Shown: one piece after another, positions 5,176-49,891 of the stretch
How positions within the stretch are numbered: the first letter of the stretch is position 1
Layout of the letters: the number at the start of each line of letters is the position of its first letter
Position numbers and translations under genes: made by a program
The notes under the pieces: model-generated
What the model saw: only the letters and a program-made list of their open reading frames with translations
Databases searched by the model: none
What the model was told of the DNA's origin: nothing
Assembly (NCBI GenBank): GCA_040754075.1
Contig: JBFMDH010000039.1
Location: 1 to 64,000 of the forward strand
DNA length: 64,000 nt
Source: Acidobacteriota bacterium
GTDB lineage: Bacteria > Acidobacteriota > Blastocatellia > UBA7656
Direction of reading: 5' to 3'

Positions 5176-5685
5176 ATGAGTAAAAGTAAAATCCAGACAT
5201 TTGCAGCATTCTCGCTGATGTTACTGATTGTCGGTTTGGGATATGGGCAAACAAAAACCGGTCGCGTAGAGGGAACAGTGTTTGATCCAAACGGCGCAGT
5301 AATTCCAGGAGCCAAAGTTACTTTTGAAAATGCTCAATTCAGCCAGGTGACTTTTACTAATGAAGCAGGTCACTATGAGATTGAGTTGCCTGAAGATGTT
5401 TATACGTTAAAGATACTAGCCAATGGCTTTCTCCCACTTGAGATAATTTTGATTCGCGTTGAGGTTGGTAAAAATAATATCGAAAATTTGATACTAAAAC
5501 TTGAACCGAGATCTTATATGCATCCACCCATAACAGGAGAACATCAAGATATTATTCCTTCCGAAAGGATAATCATTCCACGCATCGAAAAAAGTGGAGA
5601 TTTAGTTAATGTTGCTGACATAAAAGGTCGGAAATCAAACAGAGAAGATACGAAAATTAAAAAGCGAAAACCGAAAGGACATTGA
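5176..5685 (+). CDS. Secreted carboxypeptidase-regulatory-like domain protein
   Basis: A protein of 169 residues with an N-terminal signal peptide (hydrophobic core FAAFSLMLLIVGLG, likely cleavage after GYG). It then has one carboxypeptidase regulatory-like/transthyretin-type beta-sandwich (GRVEGTVFDPNGAVIPGAKV to YTLKILANGFLPLE, residues about 28-100). The last 60 residues are polar and end in a lysine-rich tail (KIKKRKPKGH). An AGGA lies about ten bases upstream of the ATG. Such single-domain proteins are common in Acidobacteriota and are presumed envelope or surface proteins. No enzymatic role can be assigned. Confidence 0.75.
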   Translation: MSKSKIQTFAAFSLMLLIVGLGYGQTKTGRVEGTVFDPNGAVIPGAKVTFENAQFSQVTFTNEAGHYEIELPEDVYTLKILANGFLPLEIILIRVEVGKNNIENLILKLEPRSYMHPPITGEHQDIIPSERIIIPRIEKSGDLVNVADIKGRKSNREDTKIKKRKPKGH

Positions 5686-6872: not shown

Positions 6873-7421
6873 ATGTTTTTGTCTGCCCTGTTGGTCGGAT
6901 TTATTGGATTATTAGCTATCACGAGTTGGATAGGGCTTTCGCTTTACAGTAAGAGAAAGCCTGAATCCGTTGCCAATCATTTGAAAAAAGTTCTTTGTAT
7001 AGCCTGCCTGGCCATTGGGATTCCTGTAATTATTCTTATTGGCATTCAAACAATTTTAAATTTTTCTCCGGATTATGTTTTCGCATCGAGTTTTGGTTTT
7101 AAACCTCCGGCGGAAGTAAGAGAATTGCAAGGGCGTAAGTCGGCTTTCTTTGATTCGGGTGACATATACCTGCGATTTAAAGCGAATAAGCCGATACTGG
7201 ATAAAATAGTCGCCTCGAAATTTTTCCCGATTAAAGAACAATTTTTTAACTGGCCTTCCCCACAGCATCATCCGCCCGATTGGTGGAACCCTTCGGATAG
7301 TAAACCTAAGCTCTTTTATCAGGCATTAAATTTTAATCAGGAATATAGCTCGAACTCAGCTTTCCTTTGTTATGATGAAACCCGTGAAATTGTGTACTTT
7401 TACTATATTGGCATTGATTGA
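6873..7421 (+). CDS. Hypothetical two-helix membrane protein
   Basis: A protein of 182 residues with two hydrophobic segments (about residues 3-26, LSALLVGFIGLLAITSWIGL, and 42-65, VLCIACLAIGIPVIILIGI). A likely extracytoplasmic domain of about 115 residues rich in aromatic residues follows (FFNWPSPQHHPPDWW). GGGAGG precedes the ATG. Codon use is more AT-rich than in aroF. I do not recognise a family. It sits just before the candidate cassette boundary at 7443. Confidence 0.55.
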   Translation: MFLSALLVGFIGLLAITSWIGLSLYSKRKPESVANHLKKVLCIACLAIGIPVIILIGIQTILNFSPDYVFASSFGFKPPAEVRELQGRKSAFFDSGDIYLRFKANKPILDKIVASKFFPIKEQFFNWPSPQHHPPDWWNPSDSKPKLFYQALNFNQEYSSNSAFLCYDETREIVYFYYIGID

Positions 7422-40325: not shown

Positions 40326-41366
40326 TTAGCGAATGTGCAAGGTTGAACGAACTTTTTCACCGTTAATTACTTCAAGGGTTCGCCACGAGCTTTCATCATT
40401 GAGGGTTTGCCAACGCCGCTCTTCGCGAATGTAATTCCAGTCCTTGTCATTCTGGTAATAGATTTGAATGTTGCCGGCTTCCAGAATGTTGAGAATTTCA
40501 TTGTCGTGATAGTTATACTCATCGAAATCGGTGATGGCTTTTTGCGCCATTCCCGAATAGAGTTTGTTCAAATCGAGCAGCGATTCATTGACTGTTTCAT
40601 CAAGCGTTGTGACTTTCAAACCGATGCGTTTGGCTTCGCGCGCGGTAATCGGATAACTGTGCGAAGGATAATTGGCATTCAAATGCTGACTGATGCGCTT
40701 GCATTCCTGTTCGTCGTTGATGTGATAAGACAAAATCTCCTGACAGATTTTTATTGACAGCGAACTCGACCGATCAATCGCGCCCACGACCAGCGGGTGA
40801 ATGTATTTGAAGACTTCCGCATAAGGATTTTCGTGATGGTCTTTGGCATTGTGATTCCACAGGTTCACAATGCGGCTCATGACGTCTTGACTGACGCTGA
40901 CGCGGCGATTGTCTATATGGTCAACCGGCGACAGGTCGTGGGTGAGCGATGAATCAATCGCCGTCAAATGGGCAAGCGGACCCATACGAATTTCGTTTGC
41001 GCCAAGCGCCATCATGGTCGCTGCCGAAGCGCATTCCAGGGGAACCAGAGCGATGATATTTTTGTAATATTCGCGAATGAGGTTGACGATTCTCAATGCC
41101 GCTTCGACATCGCCGCCGCCTGATTTGATAAAGACGGCGAGGGTTTCGCCCTGTCCGATTTTTTTAAATATTTCGTAAAGCGCCACGACATCGTTATCGC
41201 AAACATTGCCTCTGAATGAGGTCCAGTAGACCAGCGTTTTATATCCGGTGATCTCTTCGAGGCGGGAAATAATCATCTGGGTGTGGTCAAAAAACAACGG
41301 CGGTTGTTTGATGCGTTTCGGTTCGACGACTTCTTTGGGAGAACTGATTTCGATTTCCTGATTCAT
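40326..41366 (-). CDS. SDH/SppA-type serine protease (ClpP-like fold)
   Basis: A protein of 346 residues, soluble, of the serine dehydrogenase proteinase family (SDH_sah), related to ClpP and SppA. The crotonase-like core has IKSGGGDVEAALRIVNLI (81-98) and LECASAATMMALGA with the predicted nucleophile S114. The oxyanion GGG and the MGPLAHLTAIDSSL strand are also visible. The C-terminal 100 residues are charged and specific to this type (EYNYHDNEILNIL). AAAGG precedes the ATG. Substrate and partner are unknown. Such proteins differ from SppA in lacking a membrane anchor. It is 113 bp from the BtuF-like gene. Confidence 0.85.
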   Translation of the reverse strand: MNQEIEISSPKEVVEPKRIKQPPLFFDHTQMIISRLEEITGYKTLVYWTSFRGNVCDNDVVALYEIFKKIGQGETLAVFIKSGGGDVEAALRIVNLIREYYKNIIALVPLECASAATMMALGANEIRMGPLAHLTAIDSSLTHDLSPVDHIDNRRVSVSQDVMSRIVNLWNHNAKDHHENPYAEVFKYIHPLVVGAIDRSSSLSIKICQEILSYHINDEQECKRISQHLNANYPSHSYPITAREAKRIGLKVTTLDETVNESLLDLNKLYSGMAQKAITDFDEYNYHDNEILNILEAGNIQIYYQNDKDWNYIREERRWQTLNDESSWRTLEVINGEKVRSTLHIR

Positions 41367-41479: not shown

Positions 41480-42406
41480 TCATTCACTATATCGCATCCA
41501 ACCGCTGCCTTCGTGGTTGAATTGAAAAATTTCGGGATGCAGAATTTCCGCGAAAATTTCCAGAGATTCGACCACACGCGGACCCGGACGATTGAAATAC
41601 TGATTGCCGTCTGCAACAAAAACGCGCTGCTGTTGCACGGCGCGCAAACGCTTCCACTCCGGTTTCGTCGCCAGCAACGCCATCTCTTCAAGGGTTCTCG
41701 CTATATCGAATCCGCAAGGCGTCACGACTATCACTTCGGGGTCTTTGGCGACCAACGCTTCCCAACTCATCCACGGCGAATGTTTTCCCGCTTCGCCAAA
41801 CAGGTTGGTGCCGCCCGCCATCTCCACAAGTTCAGGCATCCAGTTGCCCGCCGCCATGAGCGGCTCTATCCATTCGATGCAGGCAAGCGTCGGATGATGG
41901 TCAAGTTGTTGGGCGCGTTCGGCAATCGTCTGCAGGCGGGCTTTTGCCTGTTCGATAAACTGTTCACCGCGTTCGGAAATATTTAAGGCATCGGCGACTT
42001 TTTGAATATCGCGCCAGATATCCACGAGGGCGTTCGGTTCAAGCGAAACGATTTGCGGATGTGAACTGGTGAGTTCGCATACAGCCCGTTCAACATCTTT
42101 CAAAGAGACCGCACAGACTTCGCATTGCGCCTGCGTGATGATGTGCGTCGGTTGCAATTTTTCCAAAAGTTCGGCGTCAACCCGATAAACGCTCAAGGCT
42201 TCCTGCAACACGGCTTTGACGCGCTGGTCAATTTCGTAACTGCTGCCTTCGACATTGAATTTCGGCGCGGTGCAAACCGGCAGCCGTTTGACGGTAGCGG
42301 GGAAGTCGCATTCGTGCGAACGTCCGACTAAAAATTGCTGCATTCCCAAAGCGCAAACGATTTCAGTTGAACTGGCGATGAGTGAAATAATTCTCGGGTG
42401 AGTCAC
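41480..42406 (-). CDS. BtuF-like cobalamin/corrinoid-binding protein
   Basis: Periplasmic-binding-protein type III fold of the helical-backbone group: PRIISLIASSTEIVCALGM near the start, SHECDFP, ITQAQCEVCAVS, HPQIVSLEP, CIEWIEPLMAAGNWMPELVEMAGG and FNRPGPRVVESLEI. These match the cobalamin-binding protein group that often lacks a signal peptide, as here. About 308 residues from the GTG at 42406; the frame is open to 42466. No transporter genes (btuC, btuD) and no cobalamin riboswitch are visible, so it may work in the cytoplasm or with a distant transporter. Confidence 0.8.
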   Translation of the reverse strand: MTHPRIISLIASSTEIVCALGMQQFLVGRSHECDFPATVKRLPVCTAPKFNVEGSSYEIDQRVKAVLQEALSVYRVDAELLEKLQPTHIITQAQCEVCAVSLKDVERAVCELTSSHPQIVSLEPNALVDIWRDIQKVADALNISERGEQFIEQAKARLQTIAERAQQLDHHPTLACIEWIEPLMAAGNWMPELVEMAGGTNLFGEAGKHSPWMSWEALVAKDPEVIVVTPCGFDIARTLEEMALLATKPEWKRLRAVQQQRVFVADGNQYFNRPGPRVVESLEIFAEILHPEIFQFNHEGSGWMRYSE

Positions 42407-43022
42407 AGAATATAATGAACCCTTTCTAAAAAACTTCGTTAAGCGTCCGCACGAATTAAACTTCAATGATTGTTCGATAGGTCTAATGCAGGCTCCACGA
42501 ACCGATTGAAGTCCAGCGTTTGCTACGGAAAGTCATTGTGCCACTACTCAAGGTTGGCTTCCCAGCGGATTTTGCGGATGCGGCGGATGAGGACGGATAA
42601 AATTATTCAGGGGTTAGCAATGATGAATCGAATTTATCGATTAAAAAATCCGCACTCATCCGCTTAATCCGCCGCATCCGCTGGGAAATTCAATTTGAAA
42701 ATCAGCCAGGTCTTTTTCCGTAAGCCCATCACCAATTCATTAATTGTTTTTATGCCATGCAAACAAAATTCAAACCAGCAAAAGGGTTTTATGAGTTTGC
42801 GCTGATTTGCAGAAGCTGAAGACCGGATGCTGACAGCTTCAAGCAGCCATTTTTATGAAAATGTGACACCGAGAGGTTGGCACCAATGAGCGGTATATAA
42901 AACTATCAACGCTTGAACCCAAAGAAAAAATCTGAAACATCATTTGGCAGATTCGACGTAATGCAAGCCTGAGATAAAATATCTGGCAACATAATTCATT
43001 TGAATATTAAGGACACTTTAAA
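42407..43022. other. Intergenic region with a MITE-like element
   Basis: About 615 bp between divergent genes. It holds the 129-bp element at 42559-42687. The remaining 335 bp up to the DUF5694 gene has no coding frame and no RNA motif that I recognise. Confidence 0.5.
42559..42687. mobile_element. 129-bp MITE-like element related to the GxxExxY element
   Basis: Imperfect inverted ends TTCCCAGCGGAT...ATCCGCTGGGAA with GCGGATGCGGCGGATGAGG-type subrepeats, as at 4474-5044, around a short AT-rich centre. It carries no gene. It shares the tip and repeat units of the 571-bp GxxExxY element, so it is best read as an internal-deletion derivative. Confidence 0.55.
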
Positions 43023-43850
43023 ATGAGAAAATTGATGCTACCGATTTTGACCTTGCTATGTAGTTTGACTGCCTATGCCCAAGAGCTTCCCAAAACCATT
43101 CCCGGACTCGACACCGATGCGCCGAAACCCAAGGTGATGATTTTGGGCACCTTTCATTTCGCCAATCCCGGACTCGATTACACCAAAGCTGAACGCGACA
43201 GTATTTTAAGCGCCAAACGCCAGCAGGAAGTCCGCGAATTGATTGATAAAATCAAAGCCTTTAAACCGACGAAAATCGCCATCGAAGTTCCTTACGGCAA
43301 CACCACGGTCAACGACAATTACAATCTTTATCTGCAAAATAAATTTGAATTGAAAGAGAGCGAAACTTATCAAGTGGCATTTCGTCTGGCGAAAGAATTG
43401 AATCACCGGATGCTGTACCCGATAGATTGGAAAAAAGACATGGATTTCGACGCTTTGTTGAAATCGGCGCAGACTAACGGGCAGCAGAAATTTCTGGAAC
43501 GCTTTCAACAGGCGATGGGCTTTGTTACCAAAATGCAAGCCGAAGCCAATAAATACACGGTGCTCGAACAACTCCGTACCATGAATGATTCGGCAGCGCA
43601 GGCGAGATTGCATCGCCTCTATCTGCTGCTTGCCGAAGCCGGGAAGGGAGCAGATTACACCGGCGCGGATGTGGTTGCCGGTTGGTACGAACGCAATTTA
43701 AAAATAGCGATGAATGTGGTGCGCGCCGCCGATTCACCGGACGATAGAATTTTAGTGCTCATCGGCGCAGGTCACGTAAAACTGTTGCGCGAATTCTTGA
43801 AAGAATCGCCAAGCGTCGAATACGTTGAAGCGAGCGAGTACCTAAAGTAA
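43023..43850 (+). CDS. Secreted DUF5694 / TraB-like protein
   Basis: A protein of 275 residues with a signal peptide (LMLPILTLLCSLTAYA). A fold related to the TraB/GumN/erythromycin-esterase-like group follows: PKVMILGTFHFANPG (37-51) and KAFKPTKIAIEVPYG (81-95). The C-terminal ILVLIGAGHVKLLREFL gives a second conserved histidine. The two histidine motifs (GTFHF and GAGHV) suggest a metal- or substrate-binding site; no activity is proven for DUF5694. AAGGA lies nine bases before the ATG. It appears to be monocistronic. Confidence 0.8.
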   Translation: MRKLMLPILTLLCSLTAYAQELPKTIPGLDTDAPKPKVMILGTFHFANPGLDYTKAERDSILSAKRQQEVRELIDKIKAFKPTKIAIEVPYGNTTVNDNYNLYLQNKFELKESETYQVAFRLAKELNHRMLYPIDWKKDMDFDALLKSAQTNGQQKFLERFQQAMGFVTKMQAEANKYTVLEQLRTMNDSAAQARLHRLYLLLAEAGKGADYTGADVVAGWYERNLKIAMNVVRAADSPDDRILVLIGAGHVKLLREFLKESPSVEYVEASEYLK

Positions 43851-44105
43851 TAAGCGATACTTCAATGTGGGGAACGTTACTAAATCGAAACTTAAGGGAT
43901 TGGTACAAATGTCTAAACCGGAATGCAGAAGCTTGGTACACTCCATATTGTGATAAAGCCTTGTTTATGGGTATGCTCGCAACCTCGAGTGTGCCAATGT
44001 CTTAATTTCTGGTTTAGTGCGAACTATTCAAAATTACTAATAAATTCACGTTACATTAGATATATAACGCTACTTGGTTAATGTACTAATCCTTTACTAT
44101 CTGAT

Positions 44106-46544
44106 TTAGATTCGTATTCGAGTTCTTTGGCTGATACGTGTCTGTTGATATACGTGAGCGTATATATCAACAGTTGGATTTTCATGAGATAGCGAGACAA
44201 CAACAGCGAATCGCTGACTCGTAATATCAACAGGTGCCCATTTGCGTTGGCAGATTACAGCTAAATACAATGAGTTGCCGTCATATTGCCAATTTGCATT
44301 TGAAATATGGAGGCTTCCTCGCTGTAGGGTTCCTTTCTTTCTTAAAGTGGATCGAGGATTGAGTTTGAGCCGATTTCGATTAATATCTCCTAAAATAGGT
44401 ATATCGGCGTTTCCTCCAATATTTTCTATCTCATCACGGTTCCAGGCGCGAAGAGCTTCTGTGATAGATTCCGGTTCAATATTTCTGAAAAGACAAAATT
44501 CCATAGTTACACCTAGATAGCTGTCGCCTCTGGTATGGCGCGTAGGAGGATCAAAAGCAAGTGAAACAGAAATGCAACCCTTCCCTTGAGCAGTAAGGAA
44601 CTCTTGCGGCAAAGATGGGACTTGGAATATTTGAAAAGAATCAATGTCAATTAGCCCATCTGTCATTAAAAGGACTTCATTATTATCTGACCACCGAGCT
44701 CTTGCAAAATCGGGGTGACCATACCCGTAGACTCTTAATAAATCCTTATCCCAAGGTTGCCTATCAGAAAAAAGTAATGGTCGATTTTGAGGGATTCTCG
44801 CTGAATCTGCAATCAATGCTCTTATCAGGTTAGAAGAAGCGGTTGGGAATTCTCCGAATAATTGAGCCGCCAAATTAGCAACGCGAGGGGCTGCAAAACT
44901 TGTGCCTGCAACTGTCCTAAATAATTTACCATCTGGTGGTGCAAAGTTTTTAGCAGTTGAAGGTAAACCCGCATAGGCTGGTTGAGGATTTATATTATGC
45001 AATTCAGAAATACGACCTCTTTCAAACTTCCAGTCTCCGGCAAAATCCACCACATCTGGTTTAATGGATCCATCAACGCCTAATCCTGTTCGAGTAAATG
45101 GAGATGGCCAGCCTTCCTCTCCTGCAACCAGTCGTTCGATGCCTCGGTCATAATGTCTTTGTATATCTCTACCTGAACCATATGATAGACCACCAACTGT
45201 TAGTGCTAATGCTGATGTAGCCGGGTCAATCAAACGAGCCTTTTCATCCAGCAAATATGTAGGGTATTGTTGAAAAATCTCTTCATCGCTTAGTTCGGTG
45301 GGAAAGAAATTTCCTGTTGATATAACAAAGATAATCTCACGATCACGATAACGATGTGCAAGTTCGTCAATAGTGGAGGCAAAACGAAATTGATAGTTGC
45401 CACTTGAGTAAACAAGCCTGCTATCCCCTAAAGAGATGTTAATGACTTTAATGGCAGGATAGTTATTCAAGAAGTAATCAATGGCTTCTTCTAATTGGTG
45501 TTCAACTAATTCATTCTCATCATATTCATTTTGATCATCCGTCACCCTAGCAGAAAAAAGGCGAGCAGAAGGAAGAAAAGTTCTGTTGGAGATACATTCT
45601 CCAACATTGTTGTAAAGAGCAATACCAGCGACTGCTGTCCCATGTCCGCCTGACCGTTGATCACCATCCTCTGCCCCACCTGCAATTCGTTCGCGCAAAC
45701 TATCTGGAAAAACTTGTGCATCTCCTAACGCTAACCCAATTAGAGGATGCTTTTGCATGACACCACTATCTATAATCAATATACCTACCAAATTGCCTGG
45801 AATTTCTTGCTCTACCTGAAGTTGGGCTATTTCGAGTCTGGCAACATCAAGCATTTCAAAAGTTGGTGCTGGTCTGCGGTCTATTTCTTTGATGTAATCA
45901 ATCTCGAGTAATAAGGCCAACATCTCCGCATTAACTTTAGCGCGTATTAGGCATATGTTTTCGCCTATCCATGAATCTGTGACAGCCGCTCTTCCCAAAA
46001 AATTCTGAATTTCCCCTATGTTTTGCTGACATTTTTGACGATTTCCTGTATGCCAAAGCTCTATGTCCAAAGAGGCAAATTCGTCATTTTCCAAGGGTTG
46101 AATTCTTAACATTGATCCTAAACGATCTCCAGAACTGAGTTCTTGAATCGCATCAATCGCTGCTAAACCTTGATATTGTTCCTCCTGAGCATAACTTCTT
46201 AACCGACGGCGTAGCTCGTTTAAAGTGGACTCATCAGGGAATACCACGACTGCACGACGAGAGTCTCTTGCTAACATTTGCAAACCCATTTGCTCAAGTT
46301 GTCTCTCGTCCAGATAACCTTTGGGGTTCAATTGAAGTTTGAATATAAGTTTTGGATTGATGCCCTGCGGTGCAGTTTGTTGCCGTTGTTGCAAGCGGTT
46401 GGCAATCTGTTCTGCCTGCTCAATTAGCATTTGCCCATGCTCTTGGCGGCTGTCTCTTTCGACATATCTTCCTCTGCTTTGTCTACGCCTTTGCAATGGT
46501 TGTTCCCAGCTAGGTAGTTCCAAGTGTTCTAAATTCCTAGCCAT
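44106..46544 (-). CDS. Subtilisin-like (S8) protease, IetS-like
   Basis: A protein of 812 residues without a signal peptide, hence cytoplasmic. A 250-residue N-terminal region is followed by an S8 protease domain with the full triad: D259 in IIDSG, H301 in GGHGTAV and S549 in AGTSFAAP. Oxyanion N412 lies in STGNF. A C-terminal region of about 200 residues completes it. GAGG precedes the ATG. The AAA ATPase gene ends 12 bases upstream, giving a two-gene operon with the architecture of the IetAS anti-phage/plasmid-stability system (protease IetS with ATPase IetA). The region is more AT-rich than its neighbours by eye, consistent with horizontal transfer. Its targets are unknown. Confidence 0.82.
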   Translation of the reverse strand: MARNLEHLELPSWEQPLQRRRQSRGRYVERDSRQEHGQMLIEQAEQIANRLQQRQQTAPQGINPKLIFKLQLNPKGYLDERQLEQMGLQMLARDSRRAVVVFPDESTLNELRRRLRSYAQEEQYQGLAAIDAIQELSSGDRLGSMLRIQPLENDEFASLDIELWHTGNRQKCQQNIGEIQNFLGRAAVTDSWIGENICLIRAKVNAEMLALLLEIDYIKEIDRRPAPTFEMLDVARLEIAQLQVEQEIPGNLVGILIIDSGVMQKHPLIGLALGDAQVFPDSLRERIAGGAEDGDQRSGGHGTAVAGIALYNNVGECISNRTFLPSARLFSARVTDDQNEYDENELVEHQLEEAIDYFLNNYPAIKVINISLGDSRLVYSSGNYQFRFASTIDELAHRYRDREIIFVISTGNFFPTELSDEEIFQQYPTYLLDEKARLIDPATSALALTVGGLSYGSGRDIQRHYDRGIERLVAGEEGWPSPFTRTGLGVDGSIKPDVVDFAGDWKFERGRISELHNINPQPAYAGLPSTAKNFAPPDGKLFRTVAGTSFAAPRVANLAAQLFGEFPTASSNLIRALIADSARIPQNRPLLFSDRQPWDKDLLRVYGYGHPDFARARWSDNNEVLLMTDGLIDIDSFQIFQVPSLPQEFLTAQGKGCISVSLAFDPPTRHTRGDSYLGVTMEFCLFRNIEPESITEALRAWNRDEIENIGGNADIPILGDINRNRLKLNPRSTLRKKGTLQRGSLHISNANWQYDGNSLYLAVICQRKWAPVDITSQRFAVVVSLSHENPTVDIYAHVYQQTRISQRTRIRI

Positions 46545-46556
46545 CTACTTTTTACC

Positions 46557-47609
46557 TCAACTGTTTTTTTTATTATTTCTGTTAGCCTGTTTATTACAGT
46601 TGTCTGCGATTTGCGAAAGCTGTCGGGAAATAGTCATACGTTCCCGAAATGAACTCAGAGCAGCTTGTGCATCTTTCTGATAAATTTGGTTGCGACTTTC
46701 TAATAATGCTAATCGTACAGACTCGAGACATAGTCGTTCAATATCTGCACCAGTTGCGTCTCTCATTTGTTTGGCAATCGCTTCAAGGTTTAAGTTTGAA
46801 TAATCAAAACCTCTAAGAAATTGACGCAACATCAAAATTCGATCTTGCAAAGATGGTAAAGAAAACTGAACAACGGATTCAAATCTACGCCAAACAGCCT
46901 TATCTAGCAACCCTTCATGATTGGTAGCTGCAATAAGTAAGCTTTCGCCGCGAAAAGCATCCATTAACTGAAGAAGTGTGTTTACTACACGCTTCAGTTC
47001 ACCATGCTCAAAAAGATTATCGCGATCTTTGCCAATGGCATCGAACTCATCAAAAAGAACTACCCATTGTCCACGTCGAACGAAATCAAAAACCCTTCTA
47101 AGATTTGCGGCAGTTTCTCCTAGATATGAAGATACTACTGCATCAAATCTTACTGTTACTAAGGGAAAGTATAAGATTGCTGAAAGCACCTGAGCCGCAA
47201 GTGTTTTTCCGCACCCAGGTGGCCCAAAAAAGAGTACTTTTTGAGTAGGTCTAACCCCTCCACTTGCTAATAAATCTTTATGATGATGCTCTTTGGCAAT
47301 TCGCTTGAGAATGTTGAGAGATTTTTCTGCGAGGACAATACGCTCCCAATCAAAGGCATATTCTGCAATATCAAGGAGTGGAAAGCCACGTTCTCGATCT
47401 TTGGGAACTTCGTATGGATTTATGGCATTCTTTTTTTCAATGTGAGTACCATTTCCATTGAGTAGAATTCTTTCTAAATCGTCTGCTAACAAACGATGGT
47501 TTTTTTCTCTTTCTTCTTTAATCAGTTTTTCGGCAGCAGTACGAAACGCAGAATCATCACGCTGTGCAAATCCTCGAAAAAGTTGGCGTAATATTTCTCC
47601 ATTTGTCAT
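46557..47609 (-). CDS. AAA ATPase, IetA-like
   Basis: A protein of 350 residues with one AAA module. Walker A is GPPGCGKT (129-136), Walker B VVLFDEFD (183-190), sensor 1 N230 in AATNHEG, and RRF (241-243) marks the arginine-finger area. The N-terminal 90 residues are charged and helical. It is classic AAA (FtsH/katanin-like), not MoxR. AGAGGA precedes the ATG. It is the first gene of the operon with the subtilisin-like protease. In the IetAS model the ATPase gates or activates the protease on phage or plasmid challenge; that is taken from the family, not seen here. Confidence 0.85.
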   Translation of the reverse strand: MTNGEILRQLFRGFAQRDDSAFRTAAEKLIKEEREKNHRLLADDLERILLNGNGTHIEKKNAINPYEVPKDRERGFPLLDIAEYAFDWERIVLAEKSLNILKRIAKEHHHKDLLASGGVRPTQKVLFFGPPGCGKTLAAQVLSAILYFPLVTVRFDAVVSSYLGETAANLRRVFDFVRRGQWVVLFDEFDAIGKDRDNLFEHGELKRVVNTLLQLMDAFRGESLLIAATNHEGLLDKAVWRRFESVVQFSLPSLQDRILMLRQFLRGFDYSNLNLEAIAKQMRDATGADIERLCLESVRLALLESRNQIYQKDAQAALSSFRERMTISRQLSQIADNCNKQANRNNKKNS

Positions 47610-47672
47610 ATTGCCAATCCTCTATTTACCTAACGTAAATTAACAGATTTGCCGTGGGGCAATCTACATTAA

Positions 47673-49723
<2,051 letters not shown>

Positions 49724-49725
49724 TT

Positions 49726-49766: not shown

Positions 49767-49775
49767 CAATAGCGT

Positions 49776-49866
49776 TTCCTGAGTTCTCCCTGCGTCGGCA
49801 TTATCCGCATCAGGTTCTTAGGGTCTCCCGCTGTGGGACTCTCAGCCTCCGTTGAAGCTCCCCTGA
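49776..49866 (-). promoter_or_regulatory. TPP riboswitch (THI element) for thiC
   Basis: On the minus strand: GGGGAGC at the start, CTGAGAG in the pyrimidine sensor helix, ACCC then GAACCTGAT, and GATAATGCCGACGCAGGGA. All conserved THI-box segments are in order, with closing P1 arms CAGGGG and CTCAGG-side bases. It directly precedes the terminator and thiC. Confidence 0.93.
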
Positions 49867-49891
49867 AAAAATTCATTGAACCAAAGATCGG

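Follow-up and report, generated by a model that had tools for sequence, protein, structure and literature searches.

IetAS modules pair an AAA ATPase, IetA, with a subtilisin-like serine protease, IetS. The founding member, ietAS of Agrobacterium, is said, in work by Yamamoto from 2009, to be a toxin-antitoxin system that stabilises the plasmid pTiC58. Here we describe a pair of this kind from a 64,000-nucleotide stretch of Acidobacteriota DNA (the window), which is contig C39 of a genome of 7.58 Mb in 68 contigs. The two loci share an AAA-ATPase gene and a serine-protease gene, antitoxin and toxin respectively in Agrobacterium; the pTiC58 pair is plasmid-borne, whereas the window pair lies on a chromosomal contig beside thiC.

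Two further pairs have been described. In sgiAT of SGI1, which belongs to the same two protein families, the protease is toxic and the ATPase neutralises it (PMC5006074). The same division of roles is given for T133/A132 of Mycoplasma mycoides subsp. capri (PMC8562856), an AAA-ATPase/subtilisin-like pair that is likewise chromosomal and of similar size (353/757 aa); it comes from a different lineage and its function has been demonstrated, whereas the window pair is known from sequence. Both sources also describe the IetAS-type pair as a toxin-antitoxin system stabilising mobile DNA (PMC5006074, PMC8562856), so that the label 'defence' is, for the window pair, family knowledge.

Results

A divergent IetAS pair

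The preliminary description of this locus had placed an ATPase-first, minus-strand pair of genes here with a 12-bp gap between them, and the sequence agrees in each of these respects:

46557-47609, minus strand: ietA, a 350-aa AAA ATPase gene
46545-46556, minus strand: 12-bp gap from the ietA stop to the ietS start, same strand, presumed operon
44106-46544, minus strand: ietS, an 812-aa S8 (subtilisin-like) protease gene

Its proposal that the pair is IetAS-like was also borne out, with strong and nearly full-length matches to both PADLOC models: IetS PDLC02198 (E 3.5e-115, residues 6-812) and IetA PDLC02196 (E 4.3e-96, residues 3-335 of 350). In PADLOC terms, both protein models, intact catalytic residues, adjacency, common strand and gene order are all present. 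The equivalog cut-offs of NCBIfam are missed by a wide margin (103.3 of 900 bits for IteS NF042956, 254.9 of 510 bits for IteA NF042959), and for this reason we regard the pair as a divergent member of the family and do not file it as IteS/IteA equivalogs. Gene order, domains and model coverage are those of IetAS, whereas the window IetS is only 27-34% identical to the aligned proteobacterial and viral-contig copies. We read the segment as a divergent, apparently intact IetAS module, a new copy of a known two-gene system. In a first set of relatives' loci all 13 have ietA ahead of ietS in the same orientation, and in a second set IetA stands beside IetS in 17 of 19, giving 30 of 32 for both sets together.

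IetS carries a Peptidase_S8 domain (PF00082) over residues 255-609. We aligned 18 IetS sequences, namely the window protein and those of the first 9 of 59 and the first 10 of 20 returned loci, leaving out L141 and L147 as incomplete. All 18 match the PADLOC IetS model, and the triad D259/H301/S549, found at the positions first proposed, is invariant in all of them, as is N412 at the oxyanion position. The best stretches of the IetS profile fell within 234-574 in all 60 listed of 139 solved sequences. Neither IetS nor IetA has an N-terminal hydrophobic stretch, which agrees with the protease having been described as lacking a signal peptide; IetS should therefore act inside the cell.

A predicted IetS model built from the 18-sequence alignment (predicted local distance difference test score, pLDDT, 76) finds subtilases as its fold matches. 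Rows for KP-43 (1wmd; Z 27.4, root-mean-square deviation [rmsd] 3.0, 384 aligned, residues 249-785) and SubHal (5fax; Z 27.6, rmsd 3.0, 380 aligned), among matches tied near Z 27-29, reach through the C-terminal beta domain, and VIA-align rows cover mostly residues 241-661, some extending to 785-804. The C-terminal ~200 residues (~620-787) thus look, in the model, like the KP-43/SubHal beta domain. Both termini had earlier been considered free of any familiar domain; this stands for the N-terminal part, where no Pfam domain was found in any of the 18 homologues scanned, and falls for the C-terminal part, which aligns with these subtilases to residue 785.

Residues 157-223 of IetS are predicted to form a strand-helix-strand-strand-helix-strand run, with a roughly similar run at 68-135, and as judged from predicted secondary structure the N-terminal ~65-225 would comprise two strand-helix-strand-type halves. 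The order of elements in 157-223 is that of subtilisin propeptides. The first Foldseek match for IetS is the pro-form ProN-Tk-SP (3afg), but with an rmsd of 20 over 690 columns. We offer a propeptide-like inhibitory role for the IetS N-terminus as a hypothesis drawn from the model.

IetA carries AAA (PF00004) and AAA_lid_3 (PF17862) domains. Both Walker motifs noted earlier are present (Walker A at 129-136, Walker B at D187/E188), and all 16 aligned sequences keep G129, G132, G134, K135, D187, E188, N230, R241 and R242, this alignment being the IetS set minus L199 and L205, in which ietA begins at the locus edge. N230 lies at the sensor-1 position. In the predicted model (pLDDT 86) three helices at the N-terminus and a linker of low confidence precede a PAN/FtsH-like AAA module, the top match in the Protein Data Bank being PAN (3h4m; Z 26.4, rmsd 2.1, 251 aligned) and a further one FtsH (4ww0; Z 25.3, rmsd 2.0, 239 aligned), with Rpt and p97 (Z 24) close behind.

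Base composition and copy number

The genes lie in a low-GC tract that begins at ~43.85 kb, ends close to the thiC stop (47.67 kb) and includes the DNA immediately downstream of ietS:

43851-44105: non-coding low-GC tract downstream of ietS, before the DUF5694 gene
43023-43850: DUF5694 gene, convergent to ietS, of normal composition

Within the tract the only open reading frames (ORFs) of at least 150 aa are ietA and ietS, in contrast to sgiAT, whose host island is integrative and mobilisable and carries an integrase. Lower GC and deviant codon use had been proposed, and computation against 44 mechanically called window ORFs, ietA and ietS counted in, supports both. GC is 0.424 for ietS and 0.394 for ietA against an ORF mean of 0.490 (standard deviation [sd] 0.040), and GC at third codon positions (GC3) is 0.311 and 0.259 against 0.514 (sd 0.074). 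By codon-usage distance the pair ranks first and second among the 35 window ORFs of at least 250 aa. Equally low GC occurs in two shorter window ORFs, at 5176-5685 (0.380) and 6873-7421 (0.392). DNA and IetS searches of the 7.58-Mb genome gave one ietAS copy besides one weak subtilase match, and no second close copy of either IetA or IetS.

Relatives, gene trees and distribution

An initial contig scan with IetS alone found no relative. A search of 58 genomes (57 relatives plus our own, G000) returned an IetS match in 17, with a close full-length homologue only in G015, which belongs to another family of the class. At ~67-68% identity for IetS and 72% for IetA, this is the nearest homologue found. 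Long but distant IetS proteins (26-31%) occur in G019, G001, G054, G046 and G004, the remaining matches covering mainly the protease domain; the six same-family genomes have distant IetS homologues or none, and no close full-length one. Because a single IetS model also picks up ordinary subtilases, with matches in 140 of 162 genomes of the class and 5 of 14 control genomes, we relied on long matches with an adjacent IetA. The possibility that these are conserved housekeeping genes fails on a close IetS in only 1 of 57 relatives and in none of the six same-family genomes, together with the alien composition.

IetS and IetA trees of 31 pairs, nine of them from class members, are largely congruent. 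In both, the window groups with G015 as a supported pair, the viral contig L199 is the supported sister of that pair, and the class members require at least three changes on each tree. Terminase and portal genes lie downstream of the ietAS pair of L199. Plasmid records with an IetS match number 379, of which 276 are predicted conjugative and 42 cover at least 80% of IetS, so many may be partial matches or other S8 proteases; the best come from rhizobia, at 34%. Phage records gave partial IetS matches only (8 records). This distribution is the pattern of a travelling module. Together with the alien composition, its patchiness supports the recent arrival suggested in the preliminary description, and the window ietAS was probably acquired recently from a lower-GC source.

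A second viral contig carries a different arrangement. At L198:8627-12041 the genes after an IetAS pair encode AbiEii (PF08843), a DUF6577 protein where AbiEi would stand and a recombinase of the resolvase type; this gene content reads as a small mobile defence cluster.

The pair lies directly behind thiC

The genes upstream of ietAS give the pair a defined address:

47610-47672, minus strand: 63-bp gap from the thiC stop to the ietA start
47673-49679, minus strand: thiC, mechanical ORF (Pfam ThiC_Rad_SAM, E 1.6e-186)
49770-49874, minus strand: thiamine pyrophosphate (TPP) riboswitch upstream of thiC (Rfam RF00059, 66.7 bits)

By eye, an ATG at 49568 is the likelier thiC start. Since no terminator-like site was reported in the 63-bp gap between thiC and ietA, the thiamine level might influence ietAS expression if thiC transcription reads through. 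Promoter-like matches in the gap do not exceed the chance level of the region. The overall counts, 5 promoter-like sites where 8.6 were expected and 4 terminator-like sites where 3.4 were expected, are given no weight. Short GTCCTCAGTCC / GGACTGAGGACTGAG type repeats occupy 49582-49724, between the likely thiC start and the riboswitch, and other copies occur across G000 and G001.

In G015 ietAS also stands directly behind thiC, across a gap of ~290 bp. DNA similarity between the window and G015 covers thiC and then the stretch from the ietA start to near the ietS end, with none reported between these blocks or after them. Within the stretch examined, ietAS is absent behind thiC in all six same-family genomes. 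In G004 and G006 the next window gene matched past thiC is a periplasmic-binding-protein gene (window 41480-42466), an arrangement close to an empty site. As a candidate insertion target we considered a tRNA or tmRNA gene, and ARAGORN finds none in the window.

Two further features of this flank were recorded. A ~200-bp repeat lies at 42524-42729; the query surrounding it matches this genome at 57 places and G001 at 13 short ones, on both strands. At 40326-41366, between the RidA-like and periplasmic-binding-protein genes, is a gene for a 346-aa ClpP-like SDH-type serine proteinase (PF01972, E 2.8e-10), which has no match between the homologues of its neighbours in G004.

Second thiC 3' ends in the class

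In eight of the 135 class genomes with a ThiC match (G003, G004, G006, G131, G148, G161, G090 and G118) the thiC 3' end recurs 0.4-5 kb downstream of the gene:

L084, L085, L087, L119, L121, L122, L123, L124: second-copy loci downstream of thiC
47786-47814, minus strand: candidate crossover stretch of the window thiC (tail bases 30-58), where the relatives' second 3' ends begin

Extra ThiC matches in G110, G085, G121, G023 and G145 were not counted, on the grounds of a contig start ahead of a partial thiC, location on other contigs, or splitting at contig edges. In 6 of the 8, similarity of the second copy starts within the same eight bases, 30-37 of the thiC tail; the exceptions are G131, where it starts at base 17, and G118, which copies a longer stretch. 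From this shared start point we read the thiC 3' end as probably a place of site-specific capture.

Five of the eight second copies enclose toxin-antitoxin-like or DNA-methylase-like genes. The G003 insert encodes a DndB-domain protein, an unassigned protein and a D12 DNA methyltransferase, and a PADLOC candidate-defence (PDC-S02) protein follows the second copy; the inserts of G004, G006 and G148 encode MqsA-like proteins, all three below the Pfam cut-off, and in G148 a type IIG restriction enzyme follows; G161 has a HicA toxin. The G131 insert encodes a ~250-aa protein (251 aa in G131) whose counterpart lies directly behind thiC in G057, a member of a different genus (L119:2307-3059 and L321:2500-3249); the two are identical at 165 of 249 residues and have no Pfam or PADLOC match. 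Two inserts speak against a hotspot pattern: that of G090 holds ordinary metabolic and unassigned genes, and that of G118 encodes a TPR protein along with one that is unassigned. In G153 and G091, where no second copy is seen, the proteins encoded after thiC are DUF4258 and PIN proteins.

As a control, the MoaA C-terminus gave one nearby second copy (G024) among the matches listed, in 143 genomes with a match. The excess for thiC (8/135 vs 1/143) has a one-sided Fisher p of 0.015, or 0.028 with G004 and G006 taken as one event; counting as nearby also the second MoaA match of G091, which falls outside those listed, these become 0.042 and 0.073. The genomes being related, we consider the excess suggestive only, and the shared start point the stronger evidence. 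We also surveyed the first ORF behind thiC in genomes lacking a second copy, plus G121, whose second thiC match lies elsewhere (40 loci, 37 long enough). Of 32 first ORFs scanned with Pfam from these 37, five match families of toxin-antitoxin or defence type (L309, L314, L331, L333 and, at a score under the curated cut-off, L301), two PDDEXK_3 and one KilA-N match being arguable; no rate is drawn, the survey having no matched control.

Downstream of thiC, neither the window nor G015 shows a repeat of the thiC 3' end that rises above shuffle level. In one of 32 comparisons, that of the G001 tail with 43000-44110, a 26-column match scored higher than the shuffles; we take it as chance. The window pair fits the proposed hotspot by position and kind of cargo, yet it lacks a second thiC end, so that its own entry by that route is conjecture.

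Discussion

Our preferred reading, to which we give a probability of roughly three in four, is that the window pair is a chromosomal toxin-antitoxin/phage-defence module in which IetA keeps IetS in check until infection, or loss of the module, frees a killer protease. What the sequence establishes is the order of the genes, their intact active sites and their membership in the models; the trees of the two genes are largely congruent, their composition is alien and their distribution patchy. The roles of toxic protease and neutralising ATPase are carried over from sgiAT and T133/A132 (PMC5006074, PMC8562856), and that of phage defence from PADLOC and the literature (PMC9958689, PMC10286901). 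In the proposed mechanism, IetS would be a subtilisin-like protease of the cytosol, toxic once free, and IetA, an AAA ATPase resembling the PAN/Rpt and FtsH unfoldase motors, would bind and restrain it, with the N-terminal region of IetS as a candidate inhibitory or docking part. Infection, or loss of the module, would lift this restraint; freed IetS would then cut cell or phage proteins and the infected cell would die or stop, the outcome being abortive infection or post-segregational killing. A review has a table that places ietAS under 'functional phage proteins' in its account of phage escape, a group comprising DNA polymerase, single-stranded-DNA-binding protein, helicase, terminase and others (PMC10286901), and this listing would fit sensing of a phage protein by IetAS.

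Several points weigh against this reading. The scores below the NCBIfam cut-offs mean that the behaviour of the characterised pairs may not carry over. No IetA was detected at two of the 19 loci of the second set, L141, whose ietS ORF begins 36 bases from the locus start, and L147, a 505-aa fragment; at L204 (5995-9419) ietA is convergent to ietS rather than upstream of it, and this locus is placed differently in the two trees. Under its own promoter, sgiAT gave no post-segregational killing (PMC5006074), and the T133/A132 study regards its results from E. coli and B. subtilis as limited or inconclusive, even though the pair scored in E. coli (PMC8562856). Two further papers state that the ietAS mechanism awaits description (PMC9958689, from 2023) or is incompletely elucidated (PMC12755874). 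We found no mechanistic IetAS study in the literature searched, which covered few subscription papers.

It seems rather unlikely that ietAS is a selfish module for stability which plays no part in defending this host. The founding member is said to stabilise pTiC58; the plasmid records with an IetS match, though few of them cover most of the protein, and the terminase and portal genes behind the sister copy L199 point the same way, but stabilisation and defence are compatible and PADLOC classes the family as defence.

We consider it unlikely that ietAS has long resided at the thiC locus of this class, inherited vertically with loss in most lines or moved together with thiC, with no recent arrival at the site. 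The only close homologue, in another family, has the same address, and DNA similarity with it covers both thiC and ietAS. The window thiC is 74-81% identical in DNA to those of the six same-family genomes; the ThiC proteins of the window and G001 are 88.6% identical, with 78.7-82.1% for the remaining five and 79.7% for G015. Because the G015 value falls within the same-family range, co-transfer of thiC and ietAS is neither shown nor excluded by ThiC identity. Set against such residence are the six same-family genomes with no ietAS in the part behind thiC that was examined, the greater identity of IetS and IetA (67/72%) than of MoaA (56%) between the window and G015, and a composition that is alien in the window and, in G015, has a GC3 of 0.46-0.50 for ietAS against 0.63 for thiC.

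Subtilisins are not known to form closed chambers, which counts against a further proposal, that IetAS is an ATP-dependent two-component protease in which IetA unfolds substrates and feeds them to IetS, as an activator like FtsH or the PAN-proteasome, defence being degradation of phage proteins. This is improbable: PAN and FtsH are the closest matches of the IetA AAA module among the rows shown and the genes are paired in 30 of 32 loci, but p97 also reaches Z 24, a shared fold shows no function, and in two relatives the protease by itself is toxic and the ATPase counteracts this, the opposite of an obligate activator (PMC5006074, PMC8562856).

More tentatively, and with the odds somewhat against it as a whole, we propose that the thiC 3' end is a class-wide site-specific integration point for small defence or toxin-antitoxin cassettes without a recombinase of their own (no search aimed at recombinases was made), and that the window ietAS is an occupant whose distal thiC copy was lost and which now sits inside a TPP-riboswitch-controlled thiC unit. 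In the accounts of Nobusato from 2000 and Furuta from 2010, restriction-modification genes reportedly insert with long target duplication. The likeness is a small cargo bounded by a duplicated host stretch, as at the relatives' thiC; the thiC case differs in that most second copies begin within the same eight bases, which looks site-specific. In the literature searched, again with few subscription papers covered, we found no account of the thiC 3' end as an integration site.

The pair is ordinary in kind, and its annotation as IetAS is correct and useful. It adds a divergent, apparently intact, phage-linked lineage to the family, which may help work on structure and mechanism. The thiC address may matter more than the pair itself, and the thiC end deserves a survey of its own. 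If the capture site is real, it raises the question of which recombinase moves the cassettes, and one thiC query would list cassettes in many genomes, some of no known family, such as the ~250-aa protein behind thiC in G131 and G057.

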